Shown here one piece after another: positions 9,011 to 33,020 of a stretch of 59,625 nucleotides of DNA. Numbering within the stretch: position 1 is the stretch's first letter; the number at the start of each line of letters is the position of its first letter. The position numbers and the translations under genes are program-made. Source of the DNA: a virus; the IMG/VR virus record IMGVR_UViG_3300040781_000192, positions 1-59,625 of that record. The stretch is one strand, 5' to 3'. Below the pieces are notes generated by a model. The model was not told where the DNA came from. It searched no databases and was given only the letters and a program-made list of their open reading frames with translations.

Positions 9011-9198
9011 CCTCGATACCTACTATGCGCTCGTGGGGCTTTAGTGTCGTAAAACTTGCTGGCCCCGTTACCCAGCTTACCCATTCAAAGGAGTTTACGG
9101 TTAACGGTAAGCCTTCGCGCCCGTGGGCAGGGAGATTTCAATTCAATGTCAAGGGTTGGCATTCTGGCAAATTAAATAGGGAGATTAAATTCGTATGA
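9007..9198 (+). CDS. Small basic hypothetical protein between 8675 and dpdA
   Basis: A 63-residue basic protein linked by ATGA overlaps to both neighbours. Ribosome site AAGGAGG. Its composition (many Lys, Arg, Trp, Ser) and its tight coupling to dpdA suggest an accessory factor of the transglycosylase, but there is no recognisable domain. Confidence 0.65.
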   Translation: MTSIPTMRSWGFSVVKLAGPVTQLTHSKEFTVNGKPSRPWAGRFQFNVKGWHSGKLNREIKFV

Positions 9199-13798: not shown

Positions 13799-14162
13799 CT
13801 TTCTCTCCTAAGCTATCTTCTAGGTCGCGAATCTTACGAAGGCGATCTCCAAGGTGCTTTTTTAGTATGGCTTTATCCGTGATTACGTTAGCGAGGAGCA
13901 GGTGCACCCGAGCTGATTCGGCATTGGCATCTTCGACTTCTTGCTGGGTCTGCGCCCACGCCTCTTCTGTGTCAGACAAATCTGCTTGGGTTACTGCCAA
14001 TTCAGCTGCCATTGCTCGGTATGATCGAATGCCGAAAAAGACTATCGCTACCAATGCTAGGACGATTAGCGCCTTGGCAAAATGTTTAGATTTTACAACT
14101 TTCAAACCAACAGCAGCAACTGGACCTAGAGCACTCATTGCTATAGTCCCTAAAATACTCAT
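13719..14162 (-). CDS. Inner-membrane spanin (Rz-like)
   Basis: A 147-residue protein with one N-terminal membrane segment (about residues 28-48, ALIVLALVAIVFFG) and a long periplasmic coiled-coil of about 80 residues. This is the Rz layout. The Rz1-like gene overlaps its 3' end by 80 bases. It acts as the inner-membrane half of the spanin complex. It starts one base after the holin candidate's stop region. Confidence 0.8.
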   Translation of the reverse strand: MSILGTIAMSALGPVAAVGLKVVKSKHFAKALIVLALVAIVFFGIRSYRAMAAELAVTQADLSDTEEAWAQTQQEVEDANAESARVHLLLANVITDKAILKKHLGDRLRKIRDLEDSLGEKDEAFKQCLDVNIPADYLDSLFSTETN

Positions 14163-14463: not shown

Positions 14464-15174
14464 TTATCCCTTCGCGATTACCGAGGCTAGTTTCTGGACG
14501 CATTCCTTCAGTGGGTAATTAAGGGTATCCAAAGTCACTTCAGGGCTTAGCGGAATTTCATATGGGGCATCATAACCCGTGAAGCCTTTTATTTCACCTT
14601 TGAATGCTTTATCCCACATCCCTTTAACATCCCGCTTGGCGCAGATTGCTGCTGGTGCTTTAACAAAAACCTCGTAGAAGGCAATCTCCCTCATGTGGTT
14701 ACGGACGCTCTCCCGCTCTTTTCCGCTCGGGGAAACAAACGCGCAGATAACAACGCTACCATCTTTGGCCTTCATCTTTGCGAGGTGTTTTACCCGCCTC
14801 AGATTCTCGGCCCTGTCTTCATCACTAAACCCTAGGTCGGAGCAAAGCGTATGACGCAATTCATCACCATCTAGGATCTCGACCCGCTTTCCGGAAGCAG
14901 ATAGCAATGCTCCAAGCGCCTTGGCAATAGTCGTCTTCCCAGAACAGGGAAGTCCGGTCAGCCAGATTACCGATCCCGGACCGCGTAGATATATTCTTCC
15001 CCAGCGCCAGACATAATCGAAGCCAGCGTAGAACATTATTTTACCTACGAATTCAAAAATCACGATGGTGCCAGCGAGCTCAACGGATCCGGTTATAAAA
15101 TAGGCTGCTGTCATGGTGACGCCGCTCGCCAGTATCCGGTAGACCAGAGCCTTGAACAAAAGCGGTTTGATCAT
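14464..15174 (-). CDS. cysC: Membrane-anchored adenylylsulfate kinase (DUF2061-CysC fusion)
   Basis: A 236-residue protein. Residues 1-57 form a DUF2061-type pair of membrane helices (KALVYRILASGVTM, EFVGKIMFYAGFDYVW). Residues 65-236 are an APS kinase: P-loop GLPCSGKTT (74-82), LDGDELRHTLCSDLGFS, ENLRR, and the APS-binding GEIKGFTGYDAPYE. APS kinase makes PAPS, the sulfate donor of sulfotransferases. All key motifs look intact. Start is ATG 15174, with GGGAGG seven bases before it, overlapping the upstream stop by four bases. A phage sulfotransferase is encoded at 31717, so PAPS could be used by the phage itself. Confidence 0.9.
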   Translation of the reverse strand: MIKPLLFKALVYRILASGVTMTAAYFITGSVELAGTIVIFEFVGKIMFYAGFDYVWRWGRIYLRGPGSVIWLTGLPCSGKTTIAKALGALLSASGKRVEILDGDELRHTLCSDLGFSDEDRAENLRRVKHLAKMKAKDGSVVICAFVSPSGKERESVRNHMREIAFYEVFVKAPAAICAKRDVKGMWDKAFKGEIKGFTGYDAPYEIPLSPEVTLDTLNYPLKECVQKLASVIAKG

Positions 15175-15539
15175 TTTCCCGCCTCCCGAAGAACTGCCTG
15201 CGCCTCTTCCGGCCAATCAAAACACTCACCGGCACGAATAGCGGTGGCGCTAATGTTTTCGATGTTCTCAGGGACTTGCATGATGGCATACCCAACGCCG
15301 CGCCCAACACAAACGGTATCGATATCGGGGATCACAATTACGCTCACAAGATCGTTGCCGGCATAAACCGCTTCGATCATTCGCTTACGCAAATCGGCTG
15401 AGTACGGGTTCTTGATATCTAGCGGGGTATCCCGAACGGCGATGCAAACTTCAAGTCCATTAGCAACATACGAGTCGACAATGTACTTGTGGCCAGCGTG
15501 AAAAGGACTCCAGCGGCCAATGAATAACTTCTTGCTCAT
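15171..15539 (-). CDS. Small nucleotidyltransferase (HxGH/cytidylyltransferase-like)
   Basis: A 122-residue protein of the HxGH nucleotidyltransferase superfamily: GRWSPFHAGHKYIV (residues 8-21) and ISATAIR (about 95-101), which match the two nucleotide-binding motifs. This superfamily contains cytidylyltransferases, NMN adenylyltransferases and ATP sulfurylases. It is much smaller than true ATP sulfurylase. It is tightly coupled to the APS kinase gene (ATGA overlap), so it may supply an activated substrate to it, for example adenylyl transfer onto sulfate; this is inference. Confidence 0.75.
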   Translation of the reverse strand: MSKKLFIGRWSPFHAGHKYIVDSYVANGLEVCIAVRDTPLDIKNPYSADLRKRMIEAVYAGNDLVSVIVIPDIDTVCVGRGVGYAIMQVPENIENISATAIRAGECFDWPEEAQAVLREAGK

Positions 15540-15558
15540 GCTTATCTCCTGTTTTGGT

Positions 15559-15972
15559 TTATGGGTACACTTTACGGATTCTGTCCGCGATATTACGGCA
15601 GTCCATATGTAGCCAGTTTACATCCATTTCAATGCAGTTGATCAATTTCAATTCTTCAGCGTCAGCATTGGCAAGGATCTCTTGCCTCGCATCTTCTGGG
15701 GTTACTTCGGCGATATCCATATCGAAAGCACAGCCGAACTTGTGCAGGCTAAACGCCGCCCCTACCGAGGTGGCTACCCGTAGACCTCGCTGACTAAATG
15801 GGCCTCCTATGGACCAGTTGTTTATTGTGACTGGGCGGGTGAAAAACCGCCGTATCCCATCGATGCTCCGAAGGGCATCCGGATTAAAGAACATCCATGC
15901 CTGCTCTCCCCAGCGGTCGAAGGTTGCTTTGTCCACAAGTTCCTGTATTCCGAAATGCTCGCATTTATACAC
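15559..15972 (-). CDS. Endolysin, peptidase M15-like
   Basis: A 137-residue zinc peptidase. SLHKFGCAFDMDI (His and Asp zinc ligands) and NWLHMDCR (catalytic Glu replaced region and third His) match the M15 D-Ala-D-Ala carboxypeptidase/L-Ala-D-Glu peptidase fold. It would cut peptidoglycan stem peptides during lysis. I chose the GTG at 15972 because AAGGA lies seven bases before it. A longer TTG frame from 16023 would overlap the upstream gene by 41 bases without a ribosome site. There is no signal peptide, consistent with holin-dependent release. Confidence 0.75.
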   Translation of the reverse strand: MYKCEHFGIQELVDKATFDRWGEQAWMFFNPDALRSIDGIRRFFTRPVTINNWSIGGPFSQRGLRVATSVGAAFSLHKFGCAFDMDIAEVTPEDARQEILANADAEELKLINCIEMDVNWLHMDCRNIADRIRKVYP

Positions 15973-15982
15973 AGTAAGATCC

Positions 15983-18900
15983 TTATACGATGAAGTAAAT
16001 GGCAGTGACGTTTTTCTGCCCAAAGGAGAAGACGCTCAGCTCAATATAAGTGATATCACTCTGTTGATTAAACGGTCTCAGGTCAAATGAACTATTCCAA
16101 GAAACAAGTTCATTGGTACAGATTTCTCCGTTCACCGTTCCTATGCTCAGGTAAAGATCATCGCCTTGAGATTCACCGGTTATGAAGATTGAGGATGGAC
16201 GTATGTTGTCTGCCCAAGTTCCGATGGCATCGAGGCGATCATCTCCGCCACCCAACGCCCATAAAGTTCCGTTCCATGCTGTACCACTAAACGGAGTACC
16301 CGGAGTCCAGAAGGCATCTGTTGAAACCTGAATCCAAGCAAGGTTCGGAGGTTGCGGCCATATTTCAATCTGTAGGCTGCTGTTCTCCGTCATTCCGGAA
16401 CAGCGCAACTCGTTTAGTATAGCACCTGCTACTGGTTCCGTTAATGGGTAAGCCTGCCCAGATACCGGTGAGGTAACAAGGGCGAAGTTATTATTATCTT
16501 TGTCCTCTAATTTGAATTGAGACATTGGACCCGTAAAGGTTAGTTTAAGCCACTCTGGTGTGTAGGAGGTATTTACGAGCCCTCCTATGGCATAGATAAA
16601 TATTCCACCAGCCGGACCGACCTGAAAAGATCCATCGCCAGAGGAATTGTACCAAGTGCTTTCATCGAATAAGTTCCAGTGGTTTTCTGTTGTTACAGGG
16701 TAGAACGTTACCGGAGGAAGAATAAGCTCGGACGCTGGATAGGCTTCGTCTACTACATAAGTGAAGCGAAGAGCATCATAGTCGGTAGCCCAGCCTGTTC
16801 CGTTTATATTATCTAGGCGCCCTGCGCTTTGTGGTCTAATTCCCGGAAGCATCAAAGCCTCGTTGATATACATGTTATCATCTGCTCTTTGCCAATCGGC
16901 CATTATCCCAACGTCTTCCCAAACACCTGCGAAAAGCCCTTCTATGCTGGTGATGATATATGCCGTGTCATTTGGAGCTCCGCCTTGATTCCTCACGTCT
17001 ATCTGGGTTGCTAGACTTGTATCGGCATTTCCTGTCCAAGCCATAGCAGTACCAGAAGGATAATCTTGAGTCCAGTTTCCGAATACTGCAGTAGATTCTG
17101 CGCTATTCCAAACCCATATAAGCAATTCAGTTAGTGGGATCACTGGTGGCTCAACCGGTGGAACAAGTGGTGTAAAGTTCGGGAAATCGATATTGTAAGT
17201 ATTGATCGTATCGAAAGAATCAGACGCTATATATACATTATCTCCAGCAGCACACATAGCCCTTGGAACAGCAAAGATACCAGTAGTTAAATCTTGCGAG
17301 CCAACAAGAATAGCGGTTGAAATATTATAAGCCTCAGTCAAATGATACTCATGATACATATCGCTAATAACGTCAACCTGCATTATCCCGTAGCCAGCGT
17401 TAAACCAAGTACAAGCATTGGCCGTTCCAGCGCCACGGGCAGTCATGTCATATGTTTGAACTGCCGTATCTATCTCCCAAGGAGTTGATAGTTTCCAGCA
17501 TGTATAAGTAGAATCGTTGTTTACCCTTAATAACCAAATGCCGTCTAGGCTAAAACTAAAATCAGGGCAAGCGTAGATATATTTTGACTTGGTTTGTGTT
17601 GCGCCAACGGAACTCCATGGAGTAGGGAGATCCCACTGAAAGAGATTTGGATTCGTAGAGGCAAAACCAACATACATGCGCGTTCCATCTTGCGACATTG
17701 AAACGCCGCCGTTTGGTGTAGCACCAGCGCCTAAAACGTAGATATTCCCTGTTGATGTTCCTTTGGTGCTTACATCGTAAGGTGTTCCAAGAGTATAAAA
17801 GTAAACCCTATCTACAGCTGTTCCAAGGATCGCCAGATGAATACCATCCTCAGACATCCAAACGCCGTTCGGAGAAGTCTCAGGGGAGGTGCTTGTTACT
17901 GCCCCTGTAGCGGTAATACCGAAGTCTGAATAAGGAATTGGTGTTGCCCGTACCCATAAAGACTCAATCAGACCATCAATAAGCTGGCGACCACCAACCC
18001 CAACGCGTGTACCTGTATTATGTGTTGCATCGGTAATAGTTACGTCTTGATCTCCTCGATGAACCGTAATAGCGTCCCCTTGAGCGGAGACCCAAAGTTC
18101 ATTACTGGCACCGGTTATGCTCGCTGACCATTCTGTTGTCGCTACGTTATCGACAACTTTAATCAAATACGTCCAGTTGTTTGCCGCGTAGCAAAACCAA
18201 AAATTCGTTGAATTGACAAACCTAAAAACTATTCCGACATAAGCAGTCAGATGTTGCATCTTCGCATAAAAATCAGCTGAAAGATAATCGACGGTCGAAA
18301 CGGCATACCAGAGAGGTCCTTCCAATTCAGATATGCTTGCGTATTGTTCTTGCCAAACGGATATCCAACCAAGGTCGTCTTGCCACAATTGATTCGTATC
18401 AGCAACAGTTCCACCAAGGCGCCCATCAACACGAATGAAACTATCGTATAGTTCCGGCGTAAGAATGACAGGCTCGTCTGGAATTATTACGTCCGGAAGC
18501 GGGGTAGAGGCGAATTCAATATTTTCGATATTATAGGAAATGGTGGTAACCCCTGACGGGTCCTTGAATTCTATTTCTGCTATTTGGTTTGCGCTAAAGG
18601 CAACCAGATCAAATTCGACAGTGCGGGAGACTTCGTCCCCTGCCATATTAATGGTTACTGGAGCAAGAAGGTAAGCGCCGTTATCATCCTTGATTGAAAT
18701 CTGCAAGTCACGGCTACCGACGAAATTGAGAGCTGTAATGCGCACGCTTGTCGGGGTAAAACCAGTCGCCCAGTCACCAATAGGAGTGAGAGTTCCAACA
18801 GTGGTTGAGGGACCGGCTGGAGACCAGTAGCCAAGCTGATAATCGTAATCTGCGGGTATTGTACTCTCCCAGAATGTATTATCTGCAAACGTCTCATAAA

Positions 18901-19306
18901 CAGGATCACCGATAATAATAGCGCCAGTCACTTTATAGACGGCGGTCATTGATATTTTATCATCGGATGCTATTCCCAAAGGAAGAGACGTTACAAAGCC
19001 GAGAAGGGTCATCGCCCTGTTATCGGCAAGACGAATCTGGTAGTAAACCGGCTCGTCGGATTGGAAGTCTTCTATGGCGAGATCGAATCCGGTGCGGGTA
19101 TAATTCATTGCCAAAGTCAACTCACCGCCATCGCGGAAACCAGCTATGAATTCACGGTATCCGGCAACGCTATCCAAGCTCGTAACATCAATGGTGTCCC
19201 TGCTCGCATTCGGCCCTGACATGGAAACGATTTCCGCTGAAGGAGCAAAAGCCGTTCCGTCCCACCTGTGGAAACTAGCGCCTAATCCGGCAATGGCATT
19301 ACTCAT
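15983..19306 (-). CDS. Large tail fibre/tip protein with an N-terminal tail-tube domain
   Basis: A 1107-residue structural protein. Residues 1-127 are clearly related to the major tail tube protein at 26485: both share RETIDVTSLDS-like, GYREFI-GFRD and DDKISMT/DDKVTMN blocks. The rest is beta-rich: a jelly-roll-like region (about 180-460), a repeated propeller-like block (about 470-720) with PYDVST/PWEIDTA and SxDG units, and C-terminal lectin-like repeats with Trp-rich strands. It probably sits at the tail tip or along the tail and binds the host surface. It overlaps the gene upstream by one base. The product is expected to be secreted into the virion, not the cell. Confidence 0.8.
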   Translation of the reverse strand: MSNAIAGLGASFHRWDGTAFAPSAEIVSMSGPNASRDTIDVTSLDSVAGYREFIAGFRDGGELTLAMNYTRTGFDLAIEDFQSDEPVYYQIRLADNRAMTLLGFVTSLPLGIASDDKISMTAVYKVTGAIIIGDPVYETFADNTFWESTIPADYDYQLGYWSPAGPSTTVGTLTPIGDWATGFTPTSVRITALNFVGSRDLQISIKDDNGAYLLAPVTINMAGDEVSRTVEFDLVAFSANQIAEIEFKDPSGVTTISYNIENIEFASTPLPDVIIPDEPVILTPELYDSFIRVDGRLGGTVADTNQLWQDDLGWISVWQEQYASISELEGPLWYAVSTVDYLSADFYAKMQHLTAYVGIVFRFVNSTNFWFCYAANNWTYLIKVVDNVATTEWSASITGASNELWVSAQGDAITVHRGDQDVTITDATHNTGTRVGVGGRQLIDGLIESLWVRATPIPYSDFGITATGAVTSTSPETSPNGVWMSEDGIHLAILGTAVDRVYFYTLGTPYDVSTKGTSTGNIYVLGAGATPNGGVSMSQDGTRMYVGFASTNPNLFQWDLPTPWSSVGATQTKSKYIYACPDFSFSLDGIWLLRVNNDSTYTCWKLSTPWEIDTAVQTYDMTARGAGTANACTWFNAGYGIMQVDVISDMYHEYHLTEAYNISTAILVGSQDLTTGIFAVPRAMCAAGDNVYIASDSFDTINTYNIDFPNFTPLVPPVEPPVIPLTELLIWVWNSAESTAVFGNWTQDYPSGTAMAWTGNADTSLATQIDVRNQGGAPNDTAYIITSIEGLFAGVWEDVGIMADWQRADDNMYINEALMLPGIRPQSAGRLDNINGTGWATDYDALRFTYVVDEAYPASELILPPVTFYPVTTENHWNLFDESTWYNSSGDGSFQVGPAGGIFIYAIGGLVNTSYTPEWLKLTFTGPMSQFKLEDKDNNNFALVTSPVSGQAYPLTEPVAGAILNELRCSGMTENSSLQIEIWPQPPNLAWIQVSTDAFWTPGTPFSGTAWNGTLWALGGGDDRLDAIGTWADNIRPSSIFITGESQGDDLYLSIGTVNGEICTNELVSWNSSFDLRPFNQQSDITYIELSVFSFGQKNVTAIYFIV

Positions 19307-19797
19307 TAGTCTGCTCCTCCGAGTGCTCCGCTACCTTTTTGGGTATAAGGTGGTTGGTCTGCTTGGCGCGAAGGGGTGAGTTTCTTATCGGACTTTGCCA
19401 TGACTTTGAGCAGGATCTTCTCAACCGCTTCTTCAAGGCGCCTCGGCTCATATGCACATCCCTTCAAACTGAATGCGGCGTCATGCTGTCCGGAAAGGTG
19501 CCCGAAACTTGCCACAAGATGGTTTATGGTATCCCATTGCTGTAGGTCGACTTCCCTCAATGATTCGTGGGCTGTTTTATTATTGTCGTAGATTTGTTTG
19601 AGAAACCAAAGAACGCCGACGAGAAGGATCCCGATGGCGGTCATGAGTATGCCGATAAGCGCTACGGCGCCTTTGAGCTGCTGGGTTAGGTAAGCGATCC
19701 CATCCAGCGGGGCAGGAACGCCAGCAGGTGCCGCCCAGACGGTAACGGAGAAAGCCAGCAGTGGTATTAGGTACGAGATCCCGTACAGAAAGCGCAT
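19306..19797 (-). CDS. Membrane protein with signal-like N-terminus
   Basis: A 163-residue protein. Residues 1-22 are a signal-anchor (FLYGISYLIPLLAFSVTVWA) and 41-66 a second membrane helix (GAVALIGILMTAIGILLVGVLWFL). A charged, helical C-terminal domain follows. The ATG at 19797 has AGGAGG nine bases before it, better than the upstream ATG at 19824. It lies between tail genes; it might be a second holin/antiholin-like protein or a superinfection factor. Function unknown. Confidence 0.7.
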   Translation of the reverse strand: MRFLYGISYLIPLLAFSVTVWAAPAGVPAPLDGIAYLTQQLKGAVALIGILMTAIGILLVGVLWFLKQIYDNNKTAHESLREVDLQQWDTINHLVASFGHLSGQHDAAFSLKGCAYEPRRLEEAVEKILLKVMAKSDKKLTPSRQADQPPYTQKGSGALGGAD

Positions 19798-19864
19798 TAG
19801 CGAAAGCCTCCTAAAGCAATGCAATATTCATATGATTGCTTTAATATCCATGAGATCCCTGCGC

Positions 19865-19880
19865 TTTGGCAACCGCCAAA
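19865..19880. other. Small hairpin in the gap between 19797 and 19906
   Basis: TTTGGC, AACC loop, GCCAAA forms a perfect 6-bp hairpin in a 108-base gap of the late operon. There is no U-run, so it is more likely an RNA processing or stability element than a terminator. Confidence 0.4.
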
Positions 19881-19905
19881 TATTAGGGACTGGACGGCGC
19901 CTTCC

Positions 19906-22425
19906 CTATAGGAATTCTATTTTGGTGATAACATAATCTGGATCTGGAAGCCCTACCCATAGCTCATGTATATCCGTTGTGTACGTGAAAAAGTCCGCAA
20001 GCACTTCGCTGGTGTAAGATTCCTTGTATAGAAGGAGCGCATCCGCCACGTCATACACCCGCAACGTGAAGTTTAAACCGAGCGGGGTTGTAAACGTGAC
20101 ACGGCATTGTGTTGGGCGGTAACCGCTTGCCCAAGTACCGACGGCATTGAGCTTACCACTGAAATTTGTCTCCCCAGATGCGTACCTATAAGTATTCGTT
20201 GTGTCATCCCAGATTAGGCCACTATCAGCTGAAATGGACCACCAATCTGGACCCATAAACTGAGGAGCGCCCGGAGGAGCGTACGGGTCGGCGTCTAGCT
20301 CAAGGAGGACCAATTCCATATTGCTTTGCATCACGTCCAGTTTACGGCTCATCACCAAGCACTTGACATCAACGGCATATCCGGGATACGTGGCGAGATC
20401 CGCAGGACGCTCCGCTCCTTGGATATTTACGAGATCGCCTGGTTGTACATGGGCCAAGTGGATCGGAACATTTGATACGGCGTGCATCATCGCAGGATTG
20501 GAGAACCAGTCCCGCCATTGCTGGGCTACACTGCCTAAGAGGGTAGTGCTCGCTCCCCATTTATCAAACAAACGTTTCTCAGCAACGGTGCCCCAGTTCT
20601 CCTCCGCAGTCAAATTCAGATTTACTAATAGTTTGGAATAGTCCCCTTCTTTGTCGCTTGGCGTTGTAGTGTATGGACTGTAGTAGAACAGTTGGCGTGT
20701 ATACAGCTCGCGTTGCTGGCCGTCGATGTTCTTGAAATCGCAGAACCGAGCATCAATGTCCGCTGCTGGTGTTGCTGCCGTGTTGTAGGGTGCTGGGTAT
20801 AATTTTCCATTGCTATATGGGACCGCGAAGATCCTCAATAAGACCGTAAGTTCACTAAGGAGCTTGAATGCCTCCACGGGTTTTCCGGCGAAAAGAGTTC
20901 GCGTCAGATTGTACTCTGCTCCGCTATAATCCCCGTCGCGCAACGCCTCCCATTCGGCTACTGCTATGAATCGGTCAGCCAGACCCATCGCGTCCCATAT
21001 ATCCAATAGAATTTGGATGGCATTCTCATCCGTCCAAATCAAAGAAGCAGTGGTGATGTTGCCACTTGCGTCTGACGTTTCCCGTGGCAGTTTGATTTTG
21101 ATGAAAGGCGTCAGAATATCGCGGAGCTGAATATCCGTTGTTTTTGAAACCTGATTAACGCGATAATCATACCATGATCCGGTGAATATAGGAGCGAATG
21201 CACTAAGGGCAAGACCCTCATAGCCAACGGACAAAGTCACTGGCTTGTTCTTCAAATATCCGGTAGCAAGAAGATTGCTCATGCTTTTCTCGAACACAGA
21301 TCCCGGAGCAACTTCGGAAAGCGTCGTAACCTTATCCCGATTGATCTGGGACTTGAGCACTCCAGCACTTTTTTCTATCAGTAAGGGGAGACACCGAACA
21401 CCACCAGAATTTGGGGTATTACTAAGGAACACATAAGCATCATTGCCTCCGGCAAGCGCAATTGACCTGACCACAGGACGCGCTCCGTATGAGCTTGCGA
21501 AATCCGCTTGTATTCGTACATAACGGAATCCAGAAGTACCAACGAGACTCCCATCGACTACGGAACCCCTAAGTGTAGTCGGTGGCGTGAAATCGTCCGC
21601 GAATGCTATGTACGATAGATTGGTATCGGCTGGAGAATTATCATCAATCAATATCTTGCTAGGCTCAGACGGCGTCTCCAAAAGATCCAGATTGGCGGTC
21701 AACATACGGCCAGAAGTTGGTGTGAAGGTCATATTGGTGCCACTATAAAGCAGCGACGGATATAAAGTTCCGGGATAGTATGATGGAGCATTCATGCTAA
21801 GAATCTGAAGATCGAGCCAGCACCGCGTTCCTGCGCTAAGTAAAATTGGTGGATCGACGCGGAAATCGTCAACGGGGAGCGCGATGGAAGCACCCCAAAC
21901 ACAATAATAGTTGGAGACCGTCATGCTTGTGGTATACACTATAGGGAGCGTCACATCAAAATCGAAATAATGTAACAGCGTTCCGCCTTTTGAATCCCGA
22001 ACATTCAACCTAACAGTACCAGTGGCCTCTCCAGTCCCGTAGTCTTGACCAAACACCCACGGTTTGCTGCTATCACCTTGTTTACCGATCCGTATCTGCA
22101 GGACATCCTGAACGCCCCAAACGAATTCATTATGTTCAACCTCAGCGCTGACGGCGTCGTAGCCCATCTGTGAGGACGGTCCAAGCGGGAAGTTTACGAT
22201 GGCTGCGCCAAACCCATTTAGAACAGGCTTTTTATCGGCGAGCGTTACGCTTCCGTCTTCAATAGAAGTGTCTACCCGCAGCAAGGTGGAGCTGTTGTCC
22301 CATTGCGCTTTCGTATCCAGAATGGCGCTAAGAGCATCCGGAGTTTCTATCTGCATCAACAGCTGTGGCTTCTTGCCGGGTTTCTTCGCTTCGGTTAAAA
22401 AGCTAGAACTCAATGCGAGGCTCAT
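19906..22425 (-). CDS. Tail tip/hub protein with carbohydrate-binding-like C-terminus
   Basis: An 839-residue structural protein encoded after the tape measure and a distal-tail-like gene. Its middle region (about 360-680) with IQLRD and an NxPVTLS strand pattern resembles tail hub proteins. N- and C-terminal parts are beta-sandwich-like, and the last 100 residues (DWWSISADSG, RVTFTTPLGLNFTLRVYD) recall the C-terminal modules in the 15983 gene. It overlaps the upstream gene by four bases. It is probably part of the tail tip complex that contacts the cell envelope. Confidence 0.7.
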   Translation of the reverse strand: MSLALSSSFLTEAKKPGKKPQLLMQIETPDALSAILDTKAQWDNSSTLLRVDTSIEDGSVTLADKKPVLNGFGAAIVNFPLGPSSQMGYDAVSAEVEHNEFVWGVQDVLQIRIGKQGDSSKPWVFGQDYGTGEATGTVRLNVRDSKGGTLLHYFDFDVTLPIVYTTSMTVSNYYCVWGASIALPVDDFRVDPPILLSAGTRCWLDLQILSMNAPSYYPGTLYPSLLYSGTNMTFTPTSGRMLTANLDLLETPSEPSKILIDDNSPADTNLSYIAFADDFTPPTTLRGSVVDGSLVGTSGFRYVRIQADFASSYGARPVVRSIALAGGNDAYVFLSNTPNSGGVRCLPLLIEKSAGVLKSQINRDKVTTLSEVAPGSVFEKSMSNLLATGYLKNKPVTLSVGYEGLALSAFAPIFTGSWYDYRVNQVSKTTDIQLRDILTPFIKIKLPRETSDASGNITTASLIWTDENAIQILLDIWDAMGLADRFIAVAEWEALRDGDYSGAEYNLTRTLFAGKPVEAFKLLSELTVLLRIFAVPYSNGKLYPAPYNTAATPAADIDARFCDFKNIDGQQRELYTRQLFYYSPYTTTPSDKEGDYSKLLVNLNLTAEENWGTVAEKRLFDKWGASTTLLGSVAQQWRDWFSNPAMMHAVSNVPIHLAHVQPGDLVNIQGAERPADLATYPGYAVDVKCLVMSRKLDVMQSNMELVLLELDADPYAPPGAPQFMGPDWWSISADSGLIWDDTTNTYRYASGETNFSGKLNAVGTWASGYRPTQCRVTFTTPLGLNFTLRVYDVADALLLYKESYTSEVLADFFTYTTDIHELWVGLPDPDYVITKIEFL

Positions 22426-23726: not shown

Positions 23727-23738
23727 GTCCCGTTCTCC

Positions 23739-25694: not shown

Positions 25695-25697
25695 TGT

Positions 25698-26422
25698 TTA
25701 CTCCTTGTTTTTATTGAATGCTTTTGCTATTATGCCAAAAGCCTCTTTCATCTGCTCTACCGTCTGCTTGACAGGCTGAGTAAACTTTGCCATGTAATCC
25801 GGGACGAAATCGGCGCTGCTTTTTACGGTGGTTCCTTTCTTGCTCGCTATGTTATAGAGCATGCTGGTGATCATACCAGCTCTATGCCATGCTTGCTCAA
25901 CGCCCCATGGTTCCATCTCGTAATACAATTCCCATTCTACGAGCTCCTCGCTGCTTATGCTGGAAAGGAGCTCGTCAACTGTTCGGCCCAACGCCAGAGC
26001 GAGGCGGAATTGAAACCTGCGCTCTGGACGGGCTACTAGTTTTTTTGTAGCTGCTTTCTAGCTGACTCAGAAAAGCCGCACAGCTCACTAGCTACTTCAT
26101 AGATGCGATCCAGAGCGGCAGCATTCTTCTTGCCGAGCGCTTCTGCCTCTTCAAAGGTAAACATGTTATTACCCTCTTCGTCCACAATTGCTAGGCTGCA
26201 AAGCCGGGCGCGAGCGTTAACCATGTTCGCCTTGCGGTCTTTGCCTTCTCCGACGAAAAGAGTTACCTCAAAGAGGTCGCGTTCCTGACCGTTCAATGCT
26301 TTAACGAGCACCGCGGCATCTGCGCCAAACTCAGGGACGTCAACGACTTCCGTTACGAGGGCCGAATTGAGGATTGCATCTTTTCCGATAAAAACTCTTT
26401 TTGCTACTTTTGGCTTTGCCAT
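25698..26422 (-). CDS. Tail assembly chaperone, frameshift fusion (gpG-T-like)
   Basis: A -1 ribosomal frameshift at 26039-26045 joins the 128-residue gpG-like protein to the downstream frame that ends at 25698. After the slip the frame reads RPERRFQFRLALALGRTVDELLSSIS, a sequence typical of the T part of lambda-like G-T chaperones (DUF4035). The fused protein guides the tape measure and tube subunits in tail assembly. The frame is open from the slip site to the stop. The T part has no good start codon or ribosome site of its own. Confidence 0.88.
26036..26422 (-). CDS. Tail assembly chaperone (gpG-like, unshifted product)
   Basis: A 128-residue acidic protein that ends at TAG 26036-26038 just after the slippery sequence. 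ATG at 26422 was chosen since AAGGAG lies six bases before it; the track-like longer start has no spacing. It is the abundant chaperone made without frameshifting and acts with the longer G-T form and the tape measure protein. Confidence 0.88.
   Translation of the reverse strand: MAKPKVAKRVFIGKDAILNSALVTEVVDVPEFGADAAVLVKALNGQERDLFEVTLFVGEGKDRKANMVNARARLCSLAIVDEEGNNMFTFEEAEALGKKNAAALDRIYEVASELCGFSESARKQLQKN
26039..26045 (-). other. Slippery heptamer for -1 frameshifting
   Basis: A-AAA-AAC read on the minus strand (codons CAA AAA AAC then TAG). It fits the X-XXY-YYZ rule in the gpG frame. Confidence 0.88.
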
Positions 26423-26440
26423 GATCATCTCCTTGAATGT

Positions 26441-26464
26441 GGGGCGGTACCATTGCACCGCCCC
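26441..26464. other. Intergenic hairpin between tail tube and chaperone genes
   Basis: GGGGCGGT and ACCGCCCC form a perfect 8-bp stem. Without a U-run on the minus strand it is likely an attenuator or 3' stabiliser, giving more tail tube than chaperone RNA. Confidence 0.55.
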
Positions 26465-26484
26465 TTTAGATTACAACTCAAATG

Positions 26485-26907
26485 TTACGGGGTAACGGTT
26501 ACCTGACCAGTGATTTTCAGAGTCACATTCATGGTGACTTTATCATCTGTCGGGATCTCCAACGGCAGCTCGGTAACGAGGGCGCTGAACGCTAACGTGG
26601 TGGTATCAGCGTCTGGGAGAACAATCTGATATTGGCCGAGGACATTGCTTTCGAAGTCTGCTTTCATCAGGTCGTAACCTGCTTTGCTGTAATTCATGTT
26701 GAGCTGGACATCGCCAGCATCACGGAATCCCGGAATGAACTCGCGATAACCGCCAGTTGAATCAAGGCTCGTAACGTCGATGGTCTCGCGGGACATGCTG
26801 GGGCCGGTAATGCTGTTGACCTCAGCCAGCGCGGTAAAGACCGGGGCTGTCGCTAAATCGCTACGATTGAAAACCGCACCGACTCCACTGATTGCTGAGC
26901 TTGGCAT
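26485..26907 (-). CDS. Major tail tube protein
   Basis: A 140-residue protein located between the neck and chaperone genes, at the standard tail tube position. It is small and beta-rich with a conserved TIDVTSLDS and GYREFIPGFRDAG block that recurs in the N-terminus of the 15983 fibre. It polymerises into the tail tube that the tape measure protein fills. A tail-tube hairpin follows it. Confidence 0.88.
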   Translation of the reverse strand: MPSSAISGVGAVFNRSDLATAPVFTALAEVNSITGPSMSRETIDVTSLDSTGGYREFIPGFRDAGDVQLNMNYSKAGYDLMKADFESNVLGQYQIVLPDADTTTLAFSALVTELPLEIPTDDKVTMNVTLKITGQVTVTP

Positions 26908-26929
26908 AAGTTCCTCCTATTGCCTGTTG

Positions 26930-27322
26930 TTAGATAGCTGTTCGATGCAGCCTGAAGTTTAAACTAAATCCATGCCAACTGTTGGCATCTTTGCCGAGGG
27001 AGATGATATCGCCTTGGGACCAAATCCCAATATATCGAGCTCCGTTGATTGTTATTTCCTGCGTGCCGTTTAGATTGAGCTTGGCAGTTTCCGCCAAAGC
27101 ATAAGCGGCGTCATAGGAAGTAGCACGCGTCAGTATTTGGACTGTTGGACGGTCATAGCTTTTATTGGCATCGGCATCAAAGCCGCCAGTATCAATCACG
27201 GAGATTACTTGCGCTGGCTCTGCTGGCTCATAGGCATAAAATAGGTCTACGCCAACGGTGCCAAGCGCTCCGAATCCGGTCTGGGATAAAAGCTCTGCAA
27301 TGTCTTTACTAGGCGCATTCAT
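26930..27322 (-). CDS. Tail terminator / minor capsid-like protein
   Basis: A 130-residue protein in the neck-tail interval, just upstream of the tail tube gene. Its pattern (SYDRPTVQILTRA, YAETAKLNLNG, HGFSLNFRL) fits phage tail-terminator or minor capsid proteins of the gpU-like group that cap the tail tube. ATG overlaps the previous gene's stop by four bases. Confidence 0.6.
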   Translation of the reverse strand: MNAPSKDIAELLSQTGFGALGTVGVDLFYAYEPAEPAQVISVIDTGGFDADANKSYDRPTVQILTRATSYDAAYALAETAKLNLNGTQEITINGARYIGIWSQGDIISLGKDANSWHGFSLNFRLHRTAI

Positions 27323-27702
27323 CGGATAGTCGCATTGCTCCTTATGATGTCCAGAATCCTTGCCGTGTTATGTTTGATAGGATCCTCCAAAAACTTTGGT
27401 TTGGCACCTGCTTTTTTAAATCTAATACGCTTTCCATTCACGGAATGAGTCCGCTCATGTAGGATTGGAGCATAAGCGGCAGTCAAGCCAATCTCAACAG
27501 TAGTCCGAACCGAAGTGCGAAGAAGGGTAGCAACATACCAACTGTGGACAAGGGTGCCGGTATCCACAGGGGTTTGTTTAATGCCTTCGCGCTCAATAAA
27601 GAGCGCAGCTTTGCCAAGACCAATAGCGCCTCTATTTTCAATCTTCCCGATCTCCTTATTGAGATTTCGGAGGACATTATCTAAGCCGCTGACCCTGCTC
27701 AT
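27319..27702 (-). CDS. HK97 gp10-like tail completion protein
   Basis: A 127-residue protein with the gp10-like signature TPVDTGTLVHSW near residues 46-57 and AAYAPILHE. Such proteins join the neck and tail. Start at 27702 was chosen because GGAAGG lies seven bases before that ATG and the ATG overlaps the upstream stop at 27699 (ATGA). Confidence 0.8.
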   Translation of the reverse strand: MSRVSGLDNVLRNLNKEIGKIENRGAIGLGKAALFIEREGIKQTPVDTGTLVHSWYVATLLRTSVRTTVEIGLTAAYAPILHERTHSVNGKRIRFKKAGAKPKFLEDPIKHNTARILDIIRSNATIR

Positions 27703-28070
27703 AGTTGGACCTTCCAAAACATAATAGCGCCATTGAGGTCTCTGTTCTTACTGGCGACTAAAACCGCTTGGGCGTTTTGATTAGAAAGTGGATTAGCTTT
27801 CTGGGAAGCGTCCAAATCCTCGAGCGCCAGCTGATCGATAAAATCCCCTTCTTTGACGACGTTGGTCGGGTCGGAAAAACATTCCGCTGGAATAAAAACG
27901 GTAGCCGTAGAAATGGATTGTGCACCGGTATTGACTCGGACCTCCTCGCGGCGATCTTCCCAGTGGCAGCGCAGCTCAATCGGCGCCTCGAATGTTATCT
28001 GCCCATCGCCGGTTCGGACAGCAGATTGCTTCCACCAAACCATTGGGACGTTAGCGCCTTGACCTAGCAT
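27699..28070 (-). CDS. Neck / head-closure protein
   Basis: A 123-residue protein between two neck genes. It is beta-rich with the segments IELRCHWEDRREEV and TATVFIPAECFSDP, which fit head-closure or minor-capsid-like connectors. It joins the portal side to the tail. Confidence 0.6.
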   Translation of the reverse strand: MLGQGANVPMVWWKQSAVRTGDGQITFEAPIELRCHWEDRREEVRVNTGAQSISTATVFIPAECFSDPTNVVKEGDFIDQLALEDLDASQKANPLSNQNAQAVLVASKNRDLNGAIMFWKVQL

Positions 28071-28429
28071 TGGCCTATCGCCTCAAAAGTAGCAGCGCGG
28101 TTGGTAGCTTTCGCCAACAGGCCGGTCGGGTCAAGGGCGATGGCTTGCCTGCCGTACATAGTAGCTTTGAGACCCTCGGTATTGCCAGTCAGTTTGTTAT
28201 TGAATTTCTCGGTGGCCTCACCAACTTCTTTTTCGGTGAGTCTTGGATCGGAGATCGAGATGAAATGCGCGGCAGTCCAACGATGAATTTCTTTATTAAG
28301 CGCAGTCCCAATCGAGACGCCGGAAAACTTGTCTGCCAAGAATACTTCAGCAACCTTAATAAATGGAGCGACATCATCATACTTCGTTGTGATGATTGCC
28401 TTAACCTCCGTTGAGGATATGATTGGCAT
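28064..28429 (-). CDS. Head-tail connector (adaptor-like)
   Basis: A 121-residue helical protein with conserved-looking ISDPRLTEKEVGEATEKF. Size, position just after head genes and helical content fit an adaptor bound to the portal (DUF4054 type). It overlaps both neighbours by a few bases. Confidence 0.55.
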   Translation of the reverse strand: MPIISSTEVKAIITTKYDDVAPFIKVAEVFLADKFSGVSIGTALNKEIHRWTAAHFISISDPRLTEKEVGEATEKFNNKLTGNTEGLKATMYGRQAIALDPTGLLAKATNRAATFEAIGQC

Positions 28430-28707
28430 TAGACCTGTCTCCCTTCGTCGTCTTCAATAGACCTTGATATATGACCGGGATCGACCTTCTCAAGGAACCA
28501 GATGCAAGCAACAATAAAATAGTGGTGCTTTGCTGGTTGGTTGTGTTTTACATGATAACGCATTGCCTTACCCATAGCACTGCTTAATGTTTCGTCCCGA
28601 TATCCAAACCATGTAGGCTCATGGCCATAAAACCAATTCCATATATTTCCGCCAAGAAGGTTAGCGCCTTGGTCAATCCAGTAAAAGAAGTTCTTTATAA
28701 AGCGCAT
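28429..28707 (-). CDS. Hypothetical protein in the head-neck block
   Basis: A 92-residue Trp- and His-rich protein (FYWIDQGANLL, NWFYGHEPTWFGYRD). The N-terminus is amphipathic and might touch membranes, although no strong membrane helix is visible. It overlaps its neighbours by one base on each side, so it belongs to the late operon. Function unknown. Confidence 0.65.
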   Translation of the reverse strand: MRFIKNFFYWIDQGANLLGGNIWNWFYGHEPTWFGYRDETLSSAMGKAMRYHVKHNQPAKHHYFIVACIWFLEKVDPGHISRSIEDDEGRQV

Positions 28708-29087
28708 TATTCTACCCCTTCGTATGCTGGAAGCTCTGCTAATAGCTCTGCTTCGCTAGGGGCTGTTCTGGCACCAATCACTACGGCGTACATGATCGCT
28801 CGAGCCGCTTCCCAAACGGCGACATTCCATAACCAAATGTCATCGCAGAATTGGCGATGGGTGTAACCAGCAATGTCCCTATAGTTTGAGCATGAATGAG
28901 CGCTTTCGAAAACGAGCCCATGAGCAGCATTGTACGTGTCGACCCGTTGCTGAATTAGGTTGGTTACGAGCACCTCTCCAACCTCTTTAAGGGCACGAAA
29001 AGCCTCTGCCTGCTGCTGCTCTGGTGTAAGGCTGAATGTTTCCTCCTCGGTGGCAGTCACTTTGTTATTGGTAACAGTTACCCTCAT
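28707..29087 (-). CDS. Hypothetical late protein
   Basis: A 126-residue protein with a beta-rich start (RVTVTNNKVTATEEETFSLTPEQQQAE) and helical middle. It resembles tail-fibre-associated accessory proteins that follow fibre genes, but no domain is certain. It starts right after the structural fibre gene at 29089. Confidence 0.6.
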   Translation of the reverse strand: MRVTVTNNKVTATEEETFSLTPEQQQAEAFRALKEVGEVLVTNLIQQRVDTYNAAHGLVFESAHSCSNYRDIAGYTHRQFCDDIWLWNVAVWEAARAIMYAVVIGARTAPSEAELLAELPAYEGVE

Positions 29088-29088
29088 C

Positions 29089-31365
29089 TTATACGTCTCC
29101 TTCCCAAACAGTAATTGTAGCGCCCGGAATCATGGATGGCAAATTCCTACCGCGCACAGTAAGTGATGTGATTGCTTGGGTTGTATCTTCGTTGATTACA
29201 ACATTATCATAATGGACATAACCACCTCCAACCTGAGCAGCGTTCGAAGTCCCTATCATCATCATACCTTGAGGAGTAGAGTGCACGTCTACCTCTACAT
29301 TATTTATCTGGGTGCCGACTGCCGATTGCGATCCGCAGATGCAGTATCCAGATAATAGTCCTGGGTTGCCGTAATTAATAGCTCTGAAGGTAGCATAATC
29401 GGTTGAGGTTAGTTGTAGGTTCGGCATAACCTCGATATCGGTTGTCGCCGTGAATAGGTTGCCGTTGATAAGCACCTTAAACAAAGGGGCACCAGACAGC
29501 TCGTCGAATAGAATAGATGTTTCTCCACCCACCAAGGTATAAGAACCAACTTTTGTCCAGCCGCCTCCGCCACCAGCAGGAGCACCGCCAAGAGCCGTCC
29601 AAGCACCGGCTGCATATTCTTCAATTTCAGCGGTGGTCGTGTTTCTGATTATCATCCCCTCGTTCGGAATGATCAGATCACGCTCTGCCGTAGTAAGCTG
29701 AGGGAGCTGCAATGGAAGGCTGTTGTCCACATGACCCCATGCCTCGCCAGACGCGGCCTTCTTCAGATCGGTCAGATTGAGGTGGCTGTTTGCAGGATTA
29801 CCTGTGGACAAAGCTGTTGTCCGCCAATCGACATAGTCATCACCTTCGTCGGTGGAACGAATACGCGCGTTAACGCTATTACTATAGACATCTCGGCACT
29901 CTAAGATTATTGTCGCGATCGGGATCATCTCGGCAAGCGGTAACTGGGTTAGGATATTACTAATCTCGGTGTTGGCACCGTCGCGGGCAGCACTGCGATT
30001 AGCATAGAAGGCTTGACCCATGACGGCAGTTAGATTTTTATTCACGCCATTGAAGCTAAAGAGGTGAATCAGTACGAAATCGTTATTTGGTACCTCGGTC
30101 AAGAACCACTGGCCGTCATCTAGCTCATTATAGTAGGGCCGTCCTGCTGGCGCATTCAAGAAAGCAAATCCAGCTTGACTCCCTTCGCGCAGGTTCGCAT
30201 TCAAACCCAAGTTATAAATCACGGGGTATGTTCCGCCTGCTGAAAAGAAATTGCTACTATGCTCAAGGTCCTCGTCGAGGTAGGTACCTGAGGTTACACT
30301 GAATTGAGCATGCTGATCCAGACTGCCGTTAGCATCTGCGTTGACGTTCCCAACACTAAACCCGCTAATGTATTGAGCTCCTCTTGTCTTGTGCAGATTA
30401 AGGTGGACCGCTGGGCTCATGCTGATGCCATGGCGCTCGTCGGTATGATCGAGAACAACAACACCATCAGTGGCATTCCAATAAAAGCTGCTCACGAATG
30501 CGTGATTCAGAATGATATGCTCGCGCTGCGCACCGCTCGGATTGTATTCCGAAATCAATACGCCGTCTTGATAGTAGAACCACCATTCCCCTTCGGTGTT
30601 AGTAAAGGCCACTGTGTCTGGCGCGGGTCTTTCGAACTTATTCCCATTCTCATAAAAGTGGAATGGATAGCCTGCCGCATCTACGGTCAGTTCTAGTGTA
30701 CCAGCGTTGACCGCAATCCCGGTGTTATTCCGCTGCTCTGGTGGAAAGCCGTTCGTGTCAGTTGCCTCTACCGTTAAAGTGGAAATTTGGGGGTTAAAAG
30801 CTATAACACCATTTCCTCCATCGGAGATATTTACGACTCCGAGAAGATTGGAATAGCCGCCGAGGGTTGGCTGCTCGGCGACAAATGCGCCATCCCGCCC
30901 AAGATAAAGCAGAGTATTGACAGGGAACTCTTCTGTTTCCAGTCCGCCTACTTGACCAAGACGCGTGAAGTAACCAAACTGGCCGTTCGGGATATCATGG
31001 GTAGCCATTGCCAACAGACGGGATTTATCCGTTATGTAGGCATCGGCCAACGTAACGGTACCAGCGCCGGGAGTCACTACGGAGCCATTCCAGATTGTCG
31101 CGCCGGTATTATTCAGGCCGCGGAAAAGCACCTCCTGCCCAATATTCAAGGTGATACCAGAATACTCGTTATAATAACTTAGTGCGTGTTTGTCTGGGTC
31201 ATAGAAGACGAGCCCTTCCGAGTGCGCTGGGTTGGCTCCCAATACGGGATTGAATTGAATCTTATCTTGGGTTCCAATATCGCCACTACCTTCAGTAGTC
31301 GAGCCCTTGCAGACCTCGATAACAGCTACTGGATTATCCACGACAATGTAAATATCTTCGGGCAT
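29089..31365 (-). CDS. Large beta-rich structural protein (head or tail fibre)
   Basis: A 758-residue protein of fibre type, rich in Gly, Asn, Thr and short beta repeats, with a C-terminal domain (WTKVGSYTLVGGETSILF and following) like those of phage appendages. It lies in the head-neck block, not in the tail tip block, so a head fibre or side tail fibre are both possible. The ATG at 31365 is preceded by AAGGAG at six bases. The DUF115 and sulfotransferase genes lie just upstream, making it a plausible substrate of surface modification; that is inference. Confidence 0.7.
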   Translation of the reverse strand: MPEDIYIVVDNPVAVIEVCKGSTTEGSGDIGTQDKIQFNPVLGANPAHSEGLVFYDPDKHALSYYNEYSGITLNIGQEVLFRGLNNTGATIWNGSVVTPGAGTVTLADAYITDKSRLLAMATHDIPNGQFGYFTRLGQVGGLETEEFPVNTLLYLGRDGAFVAEQPTLGGYSNLLGVVNISDGGNGVIAFNPQISTLTVEATDTNGFPPEQRNNTGIAVNAGTLELTVDAAGYPFHFYENGNKFERPAPDTVAFTNTEGEWWFYYQDGVLISEYNPSGAQREHIILNHAFVSSFYWNATDGVVVLDHTDERHGISMSPAVHLNLHKTRGAQYISGFSVGNVNADANGSLDQHAQFSVTSGTYLDEDLEHSSNFFSAGGTYPVIYNLGLNANLREGSQAGFAFLNAPAGRPYYNELDDGQWFLTEVPNNDFVLIHLFSFNGVNKNLTAVMGQAFYANRSAARDGANTEISNILTQLPLAEMIPIATIILECRDVYSNSVNARIRSTDEGDDYVDWRTTALSTGNPANSHLNLTDLKKAASGEAWGHVDNSLPLQLPQLTTAERDLIIPNEGMIIRNTTTAEIEEYAAGAWTALGGAPAGGGGGWTKVGSYTLVGGETSILFDELSGAPLFKVLINGNLFTATTDIEVMPNLQLTSTDYATFRAINYGNPGLLSGYCICGSQSAVGTQINNVEVDVHSTPQGMMMIGTSNAAQVGGGYVHYDNVVINEDTTQAITSLTVRGRNLPSMIPGATITVWEGDV

Positions 31366-31366
31366 C

Positions 31367-31720
31367 TCAAACTCCTTGTGGCAGGATTTCAAAAGACCCG
31401 CGCAACCACTCTTCTGGTTCTTGGCCGAGGTCCGGTGTTATTTTACAGTTCCATACATAGGATCCGGCAACAAGGCCGGACGCTGACATGTCGGCTAGTG
31501 GGGCTCTCAGCACTATGGCACTTTCATTTATGCCGGTCACAAGGGTAACCTCCAAAGTCAGCGCTGGGGAAGCATCGCCAAACTCAGAAAAGACGGCAGC
31601 GGTCCCGACCCCTTCTTCGAAGTCATAACCGAGAGAGCGCGCCTTATCCCTATACACAAGGATTCGCTGGTTGAATGCTGATCCCATTGCCGCCTGTAAA
31701 TTAACAGGTATTATTTTCAT
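31367..31720 (-). CDS. Small beta-rich protein beside the fibre gene
   Basis: A 117-residue protein with Ig-like beta pattern (ALTLEVTLVTGINESAIVLRAPLA, SYVWNCKITPD). It could be a small virion decoration or the fibre's attachment partner. It overlaps the sulfotransferase stop by four bases, so it is part of the same operon. Confidence 0.55.
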   Translation of the reverse strand: MKIIPVNLQAAMGSAFNQRILVYRDKARSLGYDFEEGVGTAAVFSEFGDASPALTLEVTLVTGINESAIVLRAPLADMSASGLVAGSYVWNCKITPDLGQEPEEWLRGSFEILPQGV

Positions 31721-32385
31721 TTTATGCCCCTTGTCCAGATAGCTGGATCAATGCAAGATTTTATAATCTCGGGATCGAACGTTAGGCCAGCCCACTCGAG
31801 GGCATCTTTCAATTCCGAATAATCGCCAGCAATTAATTTATCCGACCAAACCTCTTTAACGTTAAGCCCAGAATCACGCATTTCGGCGAAGCGGGCAAGC
31901 TGATAGCGGACCCAGCCGAACCATCCTGTAGCATTGAGGTGCCTCTGCATAAAACCGGTGCGCAGACAGCTATCCACAATCATGGCTTCCGACCGGCGTA
32001 CGATAATATATTTCGCGTCTGGGAATTCCCCATGCCAAGCCCTCCACATCAAGTGGATCTTCGCACACTTGTAAAACCAAGGCTTGGCTAGGTCAACGCC
32101 TTCTGCTTGAAGAATAGACTGGACCTTTTTACGTAGGTCTGGTATAGTGGTTATTGGGTCCTCTGGATCTGGGAGTGGATCTTGACCGAGAGGGTCGCAG
32201 CCATTCGCGATGAGTGCTGGCTTTATCAACTTCTCTCGAATGGCAGCATTCTCGAAGAAGCCGTGAGGATTATTGCTATCGCCAAGAATAAGGGTACCGC
32301 CAGCAGCACCGGACGCTTTAACACAGCGGGCTACTAAAGAGGTGCCTGAGCGGGCGCAGCCAGTGATGAAGATTGGTTCGTGCAA
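31717..32385 (-). CDS. P-loop sulfotransferase family protein
   Basis: A 222-residue protein. TGCARSGTS (8-16) is the 5'-phosphosulfate loop of PAPS-dependent sulfotransferases, and KYIIVRRSEAMIVDSCLRTGF (near 132-152) supplies the 3'-phosphate Arg/Ser. Such enzymes move sulfate from PAPS to sugars or tyrosines. The genome also encodes an APS kinase, which makes PAPS. Start is TTG at 32385 with GGAGG seven bases before it, 52 bases inside the previous gene. It lies in the head gene block, so virion components are candidate substrates. Confidence 0.8.
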   Translation of the reverse strand: MHEPIFITGCARSGTSLVARCVKASGAAGGTLILGDSNNPHGFFENAAIREKLIKPALIANGCDPLGQDPLPDPEDPITTIPDLRKKVQSILQAEGVDLAKPWFYKCAKIHLMWRAWHGEFPDAKYIIVRRSEAMIVDSCLRTGFMQRHLNATGWFGWVRYQLARFAEMRDSGLNVKEVWSDKLIAGDYSELKDALEWAGLTFDPEIIKSCIDPAIWTRGIK

Positions 32386-33020
32386 AATAAATCCTCCAAG
32401 ACAACATGGTCAAACATATCCAAGGCGCTATCGGGAGTAGCATTTAAACAGGTAACGCCAATCCGGTCTAAATCTTTGCTTATAGGATAAAATGCTTTTA
32501 TAAATCTGTCAACATATATTGTGTCTTTTGGGCGGTGCTGATGACTTCCATGCCAGTTGTGGCTACCAGCCACAACTTTCATATCGAAGCCAAGAAGGAT
32601 GATCTCAGCCGCTCCAAGATGAATTGCTAGATTAATAGCGGACGCTCCGCTGCTGAAGTTTGCTTTGATTTGATCACGCCTGTCTGTTATCAGGCCGGTA
32701 TGGTTTTGCGTGTTATTGTCAACGTTCCAGCGCTCAATCCGCTTGGCTCCGTCTGGGAGTTTGCAGTGCGGGGTTGTGCCGTAATATTGGATTCCTTTGA
32801 AATTGAGAAGGGCATCCCAATTCCATTCTACCCAGCGGTCATCGAGTGCCCATAAAACATCCACCCAGTCGCCAAGCTCAAAAGCATTGTTTACGCCGAT
32901 TACGTTTTGATCATAAATAGGGCGGAGGTCCATTCGATTAAGAGATGGGCCTCCGCCTATAATAAAAACACGTTCACCCTGCCAGATTGGTTTGACCTCT
33001 GAGGCGGGGATAATGGACAT
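32334..33020 (-). CDS. DUF115/MptE-like protein
   Basis: A 228-residue protein with FIIGGGPSLNRMD (19-31), GVNNAF, and GASAINLAIHLGAAEIILLGFDMK (near 128-151). These motifs fit DUF115/MptE-like proteins, which include pyrophosphokinases and proteins linked to surface glycan and flagellin glycosylation. It overlaps the sulfotransferase gene. A joint role in making or modifying a surface sugar is likely; the exact reaction is unknown. Confidence 0.75.
   Translation of the reverse strand: MSIIPASEVKPIWQGERVFIIGGGPSLNRMDLRPIYDQNVIGVNNAFELGDWVDVLWALDDRWVEWNWDALLNFKGIQYYGTTPHCKLPDGAKRIERWNVDNNTQNHTGLITDRRDQIKANFSSGASAINLAIHLGAAEIILLGFDMKVVAGSHNWHGSHQHRPKDTIYVDRFIKAFYPISKDLDRIGVTCLNATPDSALDMFDHVVLEDLFCTNQSSSLAAPAQAPL

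Follow-up and report, generated by a model that had tools for sequence, protein, structure and literature searches.

The virus record IMGVR_UViG_3300040781_000192 is 59,625 bases long and was analysed as a whole (hereafter, the window). Four of its genes are the subject of this study: a CysC-type adenosine 5′-phosphosulfate (APS) kinase at 14464..15174, a small nucleotidyltransferase (NTase) at 15171..15539, a sulfotransferase (ST) at 31717..32385, and a DUF115/MptE-like gene at 32334..33020. We consider it quite probable that the window phage encodes its own late-strand pathway of sulfate activation and sulfation, in which the NTase would serve as a minimal ATP sulfurylase. The four genes are present where an initial annotation, made from the sequence alone, had placed them, and all lie on the minus strand alongside the head, tail, and lysis genes, which is the late strand.

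The APS kinase and the sulfotransferase

The CysC protein has 236 residues, and its kinase domain (residues 67-216) scored 190.4 bits against Pfam APS_kinase (PF01583; cut-off 21.1). It aligns over the entire domain with solved APS kinases, and the best match in the PDB is 2gks (E 8.6e-47). Compared with a diverse CysC set, the P-loop, DGDELR, LGF..EDR.EN, FVSP, and RDVKG...IKGFTG motifs are kept. The earlier assignment to the CysC-type APS kinases is therefore borne out by the Pfam score and by the intact APS-site and ATP-site motifs; what it overlooked is the membrane domain DUF2061 at the N-terminus (residues 7-56; 44.8 bits, cut-off 23.1). On the strength of this homology, we regard the protein as a genuine APS kinase, and APS phosphorylation as a step that the window encodes.

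The ST has 222 residues and a TTG start, and it is assigned to the Sulfotransfer_3 type of sulfotransferases that depend on 3′-phosphoadenosine 5′-phosphosulfate (PAPS). Its score against Pfam Sulfotransfer_3 (PF13469) is 30.8 bits (cut-off 27), 18 of its 22 relatives match the same family, and its profile matches human tyrosylprotein sulfotransferase 2 (TPST2; E 6.8e-6). The AlphaFold2 model was of high scores (pLDDT 94.6, pTM 0.91), and its top 25 fold matches in the PDB all belong to the sulfotransferase superfamily, which here comprises sulfotransferases and the related PAP-binding retinol dehydratase. In the alignment of the 22 relatives, which shows the pattern R12-S13-G14-(T15)-S16, RSG.S and R131 are invariant, and T15, K106, and S139 are nearly so. 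Thus, the protein carries the loop for the 5′-phosphosulfate and the Arg and Ser for the 3′-phosphate (R131 and S139). Because the Pfam match, the TPST2 profile match, the model, and the fold matches all indicate a sulfotransferase, the concern of the initial annotation that its PAPS-type sulfotransferase could in reality be another kind of P-loop kinase is excluded. We conclude from strong homology that the ST is genuine and that PAPS-dependent sulfation is encoded in the window.

Scans of phage records and IMG/VR with the single ST protein gave no matches, and relatives were recovered only with alignments. The alignment-based search found 31 viral contigs with the window's type of ST, many of which are fragments.

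The nucleotidyltransferase and its family

The 122-aa NTase overlaps the CysC gene by ATGA, as previously noted, and its membership in the HIGH superfamily of nucleotidyltransferases is confirmed by Pfam CTP_transf_like (22.6 bits, cut-off 21). The gene was thus correctly recognised in the initial annotation, which missed its role; the evidence points to the sulfate-adenylating step. The AlphaFold2 model (pLDDT 87) has a fold like that of nicotinamide mononucleotide (NMN) adenylyltransferase (NMNAT), and profile matches in the PDB are to NMNAT, PPAT, and other HIGH-type enzymes. The HIGH motif (GRxxPxHxGH) and ISxTxxR are found as in NadM. However, all scores against the NCBIfam NadM models are far below the cut-offs (33.9/127, 39.2/397, and 28/181 bits). 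The NTase family lacks the segment that follows the PDI motif of NMNAT, and it has invariant residues of its own, namely Arg36, which is aligned to Gly in NadM, and Gly79-Arg80 (GRxVG). The window NTase keeps each of the 13 residues that are invariant in the family.

A relationship of the NTase to known ATP sulfurylases, whether in sequence or in fold, was not found: no ATP sulfurylase is among the top 50 PDB fold matches, and no Sat or CysDN model is among the NCBIfam matches listed.

Linkage of the genes in other viruses and in bacteria

Scanning IMG/VR with a CysC alignment yielded 80 loci, DUF2061-CysC proteins among them. Fusions of the NTase and CysC occur in both orders in phages (L020 and L034), as they do in bacteria, and the NTase is fused or adjacent in 12 of the 25 viral loci with a full CysC (L002 counted; 10 by adjacency). 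Where the kinase-like gene is short (n = 56 loci), the NTase is fused or adjacent in 41 and an ST is adjacent in 11, and in approximately 10 viral loci an ST lies directly 5′ of the short gene. The distance between the ST and the kinase is smaller than expected from random placement (13 records; Fisher combined p 0.0013). Three viral operons contain ST, NTase, and CysC genes, in the orders ST-NTase-CysC-HNH-ST (G003), NTase-ST-CysC (G013), and CysC-NTase-DUF2061-x-ST (G015), and a single protein of 393 residues (L035, 2630-3811) combines a sulfotransferase-like domain with an APS kinase.

In most of the 80 bacterial or archaeal NTase loci, the NTase either neighbours CysC or is joined to it, with fusions in both orders. 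The exception is a group of Dadabacteria, Nitrospira, and Deltaproteobacteria, in which CysC is located elsewhere in 23 of 28 genomes. A Flavobacteriales cluster (L206) consists of CysC, NTase, DeoC-like, CysQ-like, and flippase-like genes followed by three STs, without CysDN; apart from CysC, NTase, and ST, these names were assigned by inspection of the sequence.

Several observations on these loci can be recorded here. By a local profile, roughly 40 of 81 viral loci (L014-L092) have DUF2061, a membrane partner, fused to the kinase/NTase cassette or encoded near it. In L016, L017, and L018, a CysC with a C-terminal HAD-like hydrolase domain precedes the NTase, and this domain possibly represents a linked phosphatase step. 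The gene after CysC in L002 has the look of a P-loop sulfotransferase by eye, but it matched no sulfotransferase family in Pfam and is unused as evidence. Pseudomonas phage Y4 (L010, OQ572406.1, marked UNVERIFIED) and two faecal 'Bacteriophage sp.' scaffolds have cellular-type neighbours and are likely bacterial DNA; they were used solely as CysC diversity. The L010 sequence, with a histidine kinase, glycosyltransferases, CysC, and a sulfotransferase-like gene, is a bacterial polysaccharide cluster on what is probably a misassigned bacterial contig.

The NTase and known ATP sulfurylases across genomes

In one set of 196 genomes from a single order, the Flavobacteriales, the NTase was found in 7 and CysC in 78, including all 7 with the NTase. 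CysN is present in 0/7 of the genomes with both NTase and CysC and in 69/71 of those with CysC and without the NTase (Fisher p 1.4e-8). In the Dadabacteria order, Sat and CysN are absent from all 23 genomes with a known NTase, and CysC is present in 19 of them, whereas Sat is found in 9 (one a fragment) of the remaining 21, which were not directly searched for the NTase (p 4e-4). Across phyla, neither Sat nor CysN is present in 27 of the 36 genomes with the NTase and a full CysC. A complementary distribution of this kind is what a non-orthologous replacement of ATP sulfurylase would be expected to produce, and it leads us to propose that the NTase makes APS. The NTase family thus appears, as judged from genome content, to replace ATP sulfurylase in bacteria of several phyla.

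The DUF115 gene and the head module

The gene at 32334..33020 (minus strand), which overlaps the ST gene, encodes a probable glycan-transfer enzyme of the DUF115/MptE-like kind, known in phages as 'alpha-2,3-sialyltransferase-like'. As a Pfam assignment, the earlier DUF115/MptE-like call falls short of the cut-off (PF01973, 29.1 bits, cut-off 34.6), but membership in the phage family phrog_4603 is clear (2.8e-37). In many relatives the DUF115 gene is found 5′ of the ST, between the genes for the major capsid protein (MCP) and head completion, and well-covered contigs have the order protease, MCP, DUF115, variable genes, ST, and head-completion gene. In the window, the corresponding synteny markers are the MCP gene (33588..34622, minus strand; phrog_771, 1.8e-24; 39-41% to Brevundimonas phages) and a head-completion-type gene (28064..28429, minus strand), whose homologs lie directly 3′ of the ST in L131, L132, L134-L139, and L141-L144. 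By inspection of the sequences, the products of the variable genes include glycosyltransferases, SAM methyltransferases, a hexapeptide acetyltransferase-like protein, and a radical SAM protein; therefore, the region has the appearance of a glycan island within the head module. Islands of the glycan type between DUF115 and the ST are seen in L133, L139, L144, and L121.

Co-occurrence of the genes in relatives is only partly seen. The divergent relative G021 (MCP 39% and portal 41% identical) holds the ST (45%), the DUF115 gene (37%), and CysC (37%) at positions similar to those in the window, with CysC downstream of the tail genes. The other 30 viral records with the window's type of ST, many of which are fragments, showed no CysC. 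So the ST and the DUF115 gene form a stable pair of this lineage, and CysC is an addition in the window phage and in G021.

The initial annotation also suggested the protein encoded at 29089 as the substrate of sulfation. This gene (767 aa) indeed lies two genes downstream of the ST; however, nothing marks its product as a substrate, and in the relatives the head-completion gene directly follows the ST, without a counterpart of the gene at 29089.

Proposed pathway and alternative explanations

In the pathway that we propose, the NTase would convert ATP and sulfate into APS and pyrophosphate as a minimal ATP sulfurylase from a family unrelated to Sat and CysDN. The DUF2061-anchored CysC would then turn APS into PAPS, as its strong homology predicts, and the anchor hints that this might occur at the membrane. 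Finally, the ST, again by strong homology, would take the sulfuryl group of PAPS and pass it to an acceptor, for which the best candidates would be sugars or protein-linked glycans of the virion, or else a glycan on the host surface. A glycan is favoured because the position of the ST and DUF115 genes is filled in relatives by glycosyltransferases, methyltransferases, and an acetyltransferase-like gene. Relatives that have the ST and DUF115 genes without CysC presumably draw on host PAPS, and the window phage would bring its own supply. Of these steps, the synthesis of APS by the NTase is inferred with good support, and the NTase and CysC are together proposed to be a compact PAPS synthetase.

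Several observations weigh against this pathway. By sequence and by fold, the nearest solved relatives of the NTase are NMN adenylyltransferases, not ATP sulfurylases. Sat or CysN also occurs in 9 of the 36 genomes with the NTase and a full CysC, and the Bradyrhizobium types with a short kinase hold Sat or CysN as well. The p-values of the genome comparisons overstate independence because the metagenome-assembled genomes are incomplete, the genomes are related, and phylogeny is ignored. In the window itself, CysC and the ST are 16.5 kb apart, and only 1 of the 31 viral records with this type of ST has CysC, so the two genes are not obligatorily linked in the lineage and, since no CysC was detected in the other 30 records, many of them fragments, the ST of most members probably uses host PAPS. 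The earlier claim that the phage both makes and uses PAPS is partly borne out: the APS kinase and the sulfotransferase are both genuine, and other phages fuse or pair these activities, but their linkage is weakened by the records of this lineage.

The NTase could instead be an NMN adenylyltransferase of NAD salvage that neighbours CysC by chance, with ATP sulfurylase supplied by the host. The closest structures and NCBIfam models are indeed those of NadM-type NMNATs, and NadM does occur in phages, with matches in Ruegeria phages. However, the equivalog models for NadM are far from being reached (for example, 33.9 vs 127 bits), the NTase family has the invariant GRxVG and Arg36 instead of the segment after PDI, and neither the fusion to APS kinase in both orders nor the replacement of CysN would be explained. 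We consider this reading unlikely. The cysteine-supply explanation, by which CysC and the NTase would be ordinary metabolic genes of sulfate assimilation, agrees with several surveys that count cysC as an auxiliary metabolic gene of phages and with the additional use of PAPS by PAPS reductase. However, the searched proteins of the window included no recognisable PAPS reductase, sulfite reductase, or cysteine synthase, an ST is encoded in the same genome, and homologous cassettes are paired with an ST rather than with reductases; we hold this explanation to be very improbable.

APS-kinase homologues can also act on other substrates, and one of them, Cj1415, is a CDP-phosphoramidate kinase for the capsule of Campylobacter. 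Accordingly, the kinase and the NTase might make another activated group or feed the modification of nucleic acids, while the ST works on host PAPS. The window phage has a 7-deazaguanine DNA-modification cluster, and DNA modification of a sulfotransferase type has been predicted in phages (Iyer et al., 2013, as cited in PMC10829341). Against this stand the intact APS-site motifs of CysC and the HIGH type of the NTase, beside which no glutamine kinase or phosphoramidate-type genes were recognised. Moreover, L035 joins the kinase and the ST in one protein, many loci have the two side by side, and the bacterial L206 cluster contains a CysQ-like gene and three STs. We judge this possibility to be decidedly unlikely.

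In a wider sense, we find it fairly probable that the NTase represents a third, unrecognised class of ATP sulfurylase that arose from NadM-like enzymes and occurs widely in Patescibacteria, Omnitrophota, Dadabacteria, Flavobacteriales, and phages, that it makes up, together with CysC, a very small PAPS synthetase supplying sulfotransferases, and that certain phages encode complete pathways from sulfate to a sulfated product. This would fill the missing sulfate-activation step in lineages with an orphan APS kinase, a central reaction of the sulfur cycle would gain an enzyme class, and PAPS would be made by an unusually small pair of proteins. Virome surveys already count phage cysC as an auxiliary metabolic gene and usually interpret it as supplying cysteine, and sulfotransferases have been reported from viromes; phage cysC would instead become a component of a sulfation pathway. 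The model then predicts sulfation of virion or host glycans, with possible effects on adsorption, superinfection exclusion, and defence. Our literature search returned no paper on a phage PAPS pathway or a NadM-like ATP sulfurylase; subscription papers were outside the search, and the novelty is provisional.

Gene layout and other features of the window

The CysC and NTase genes are located inside the lysis cassette. Upstream of the NTase is a peptidase M15-like endolysin gene (15559..16023, minus strand; phrog_894 endolysin, 9.8e-14), and downstream of CysC is an Rz-like spanin gene (13719..14162, minus strand; phrog_89, 7.5e-7). With this pair in the lysis cassette and the ST among the head genes, the layout argues for late expression only.

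The 7-deazaguanine cluster mentioned above (5212-10100, plus strand) contains a radical SAM gene (QueE-like), QueC, QueD/PTPS, a FolE that is extended at its N-terminus, a YhhQ/Vut_1-like transporter, and a DpdA-type transglycosylase, and the phage genome probably carries a deazaguanine base. A weak sliding-clamp-like gene lies directly 5′ of a DNA polymerase I-like gene (10100-13053, plus strand). A protein of 1107 residues (15983-19306, minus strand) matches the major tail protein phrog_158 over its N-terminal ~140 residues, which resemble a separate tail-tube gene (26485-26907); it seems that a tail-tube domain was duplicated and then fused to a large beta-rich part. A primase-polymerase-like protein with an NrS-1 helix-bundle domain is encoded at 51555-53837 (minus strand).

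Comparison with known systems

The NTase and CysC pair resembles the bifunctional PAPS synthetases (PAPSS1/2 and the Aquifex SAT/APS kinase 2gks) in that sulfate adenylation, as predicted for the NTase, and APS phosphorylation are placed in one polypeptide or operon, and the CysC half is homologous. It differs in its adenylating half, which is a NadM-like HIGH nucleotidyltransferase of ~100 aa and not of the ATP-sulfurylase fold (PF01747), and in consisting of two overlapping genes with a membrane anchor. With Sat (TIGR00339) and CysDN (TIGR02034), the NTase would share its predicted reaction, and its genomic distribution is complementary to theirs; however, no sequence relationship is recognised, and its top fold matches are NMNATs. 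With the NadM NMN adenylyltransferases, the NTase shares the fold, GRxxPxHxGH, and ISxTxxR, but it is below all NadM cut-offs, has lost the post-PDI segment, and is distinguished by the invariant Arg36 and GRxVG and by its APS kinase partner. In phrog_10255 (Stenotrophomonas phages Suzuki and DLP_6), a short APS-kinase-like domain is fused to the same NTase family; that kinase lacks the RDVKG...FTG half, whereas the window CysC is full-length and a separate gene. The ST has the fold, the 5′-phosphosulfate loop, and the 3′-phosphate Arg and Ser of the Sulfotransfer_3 family, the tyrosylprotein sulfotransferases, and the mycobacterial Stf1, but it is shorter (222 aa) and belongs to a phage-specific clade with an invariant N..GFFE-type motif.

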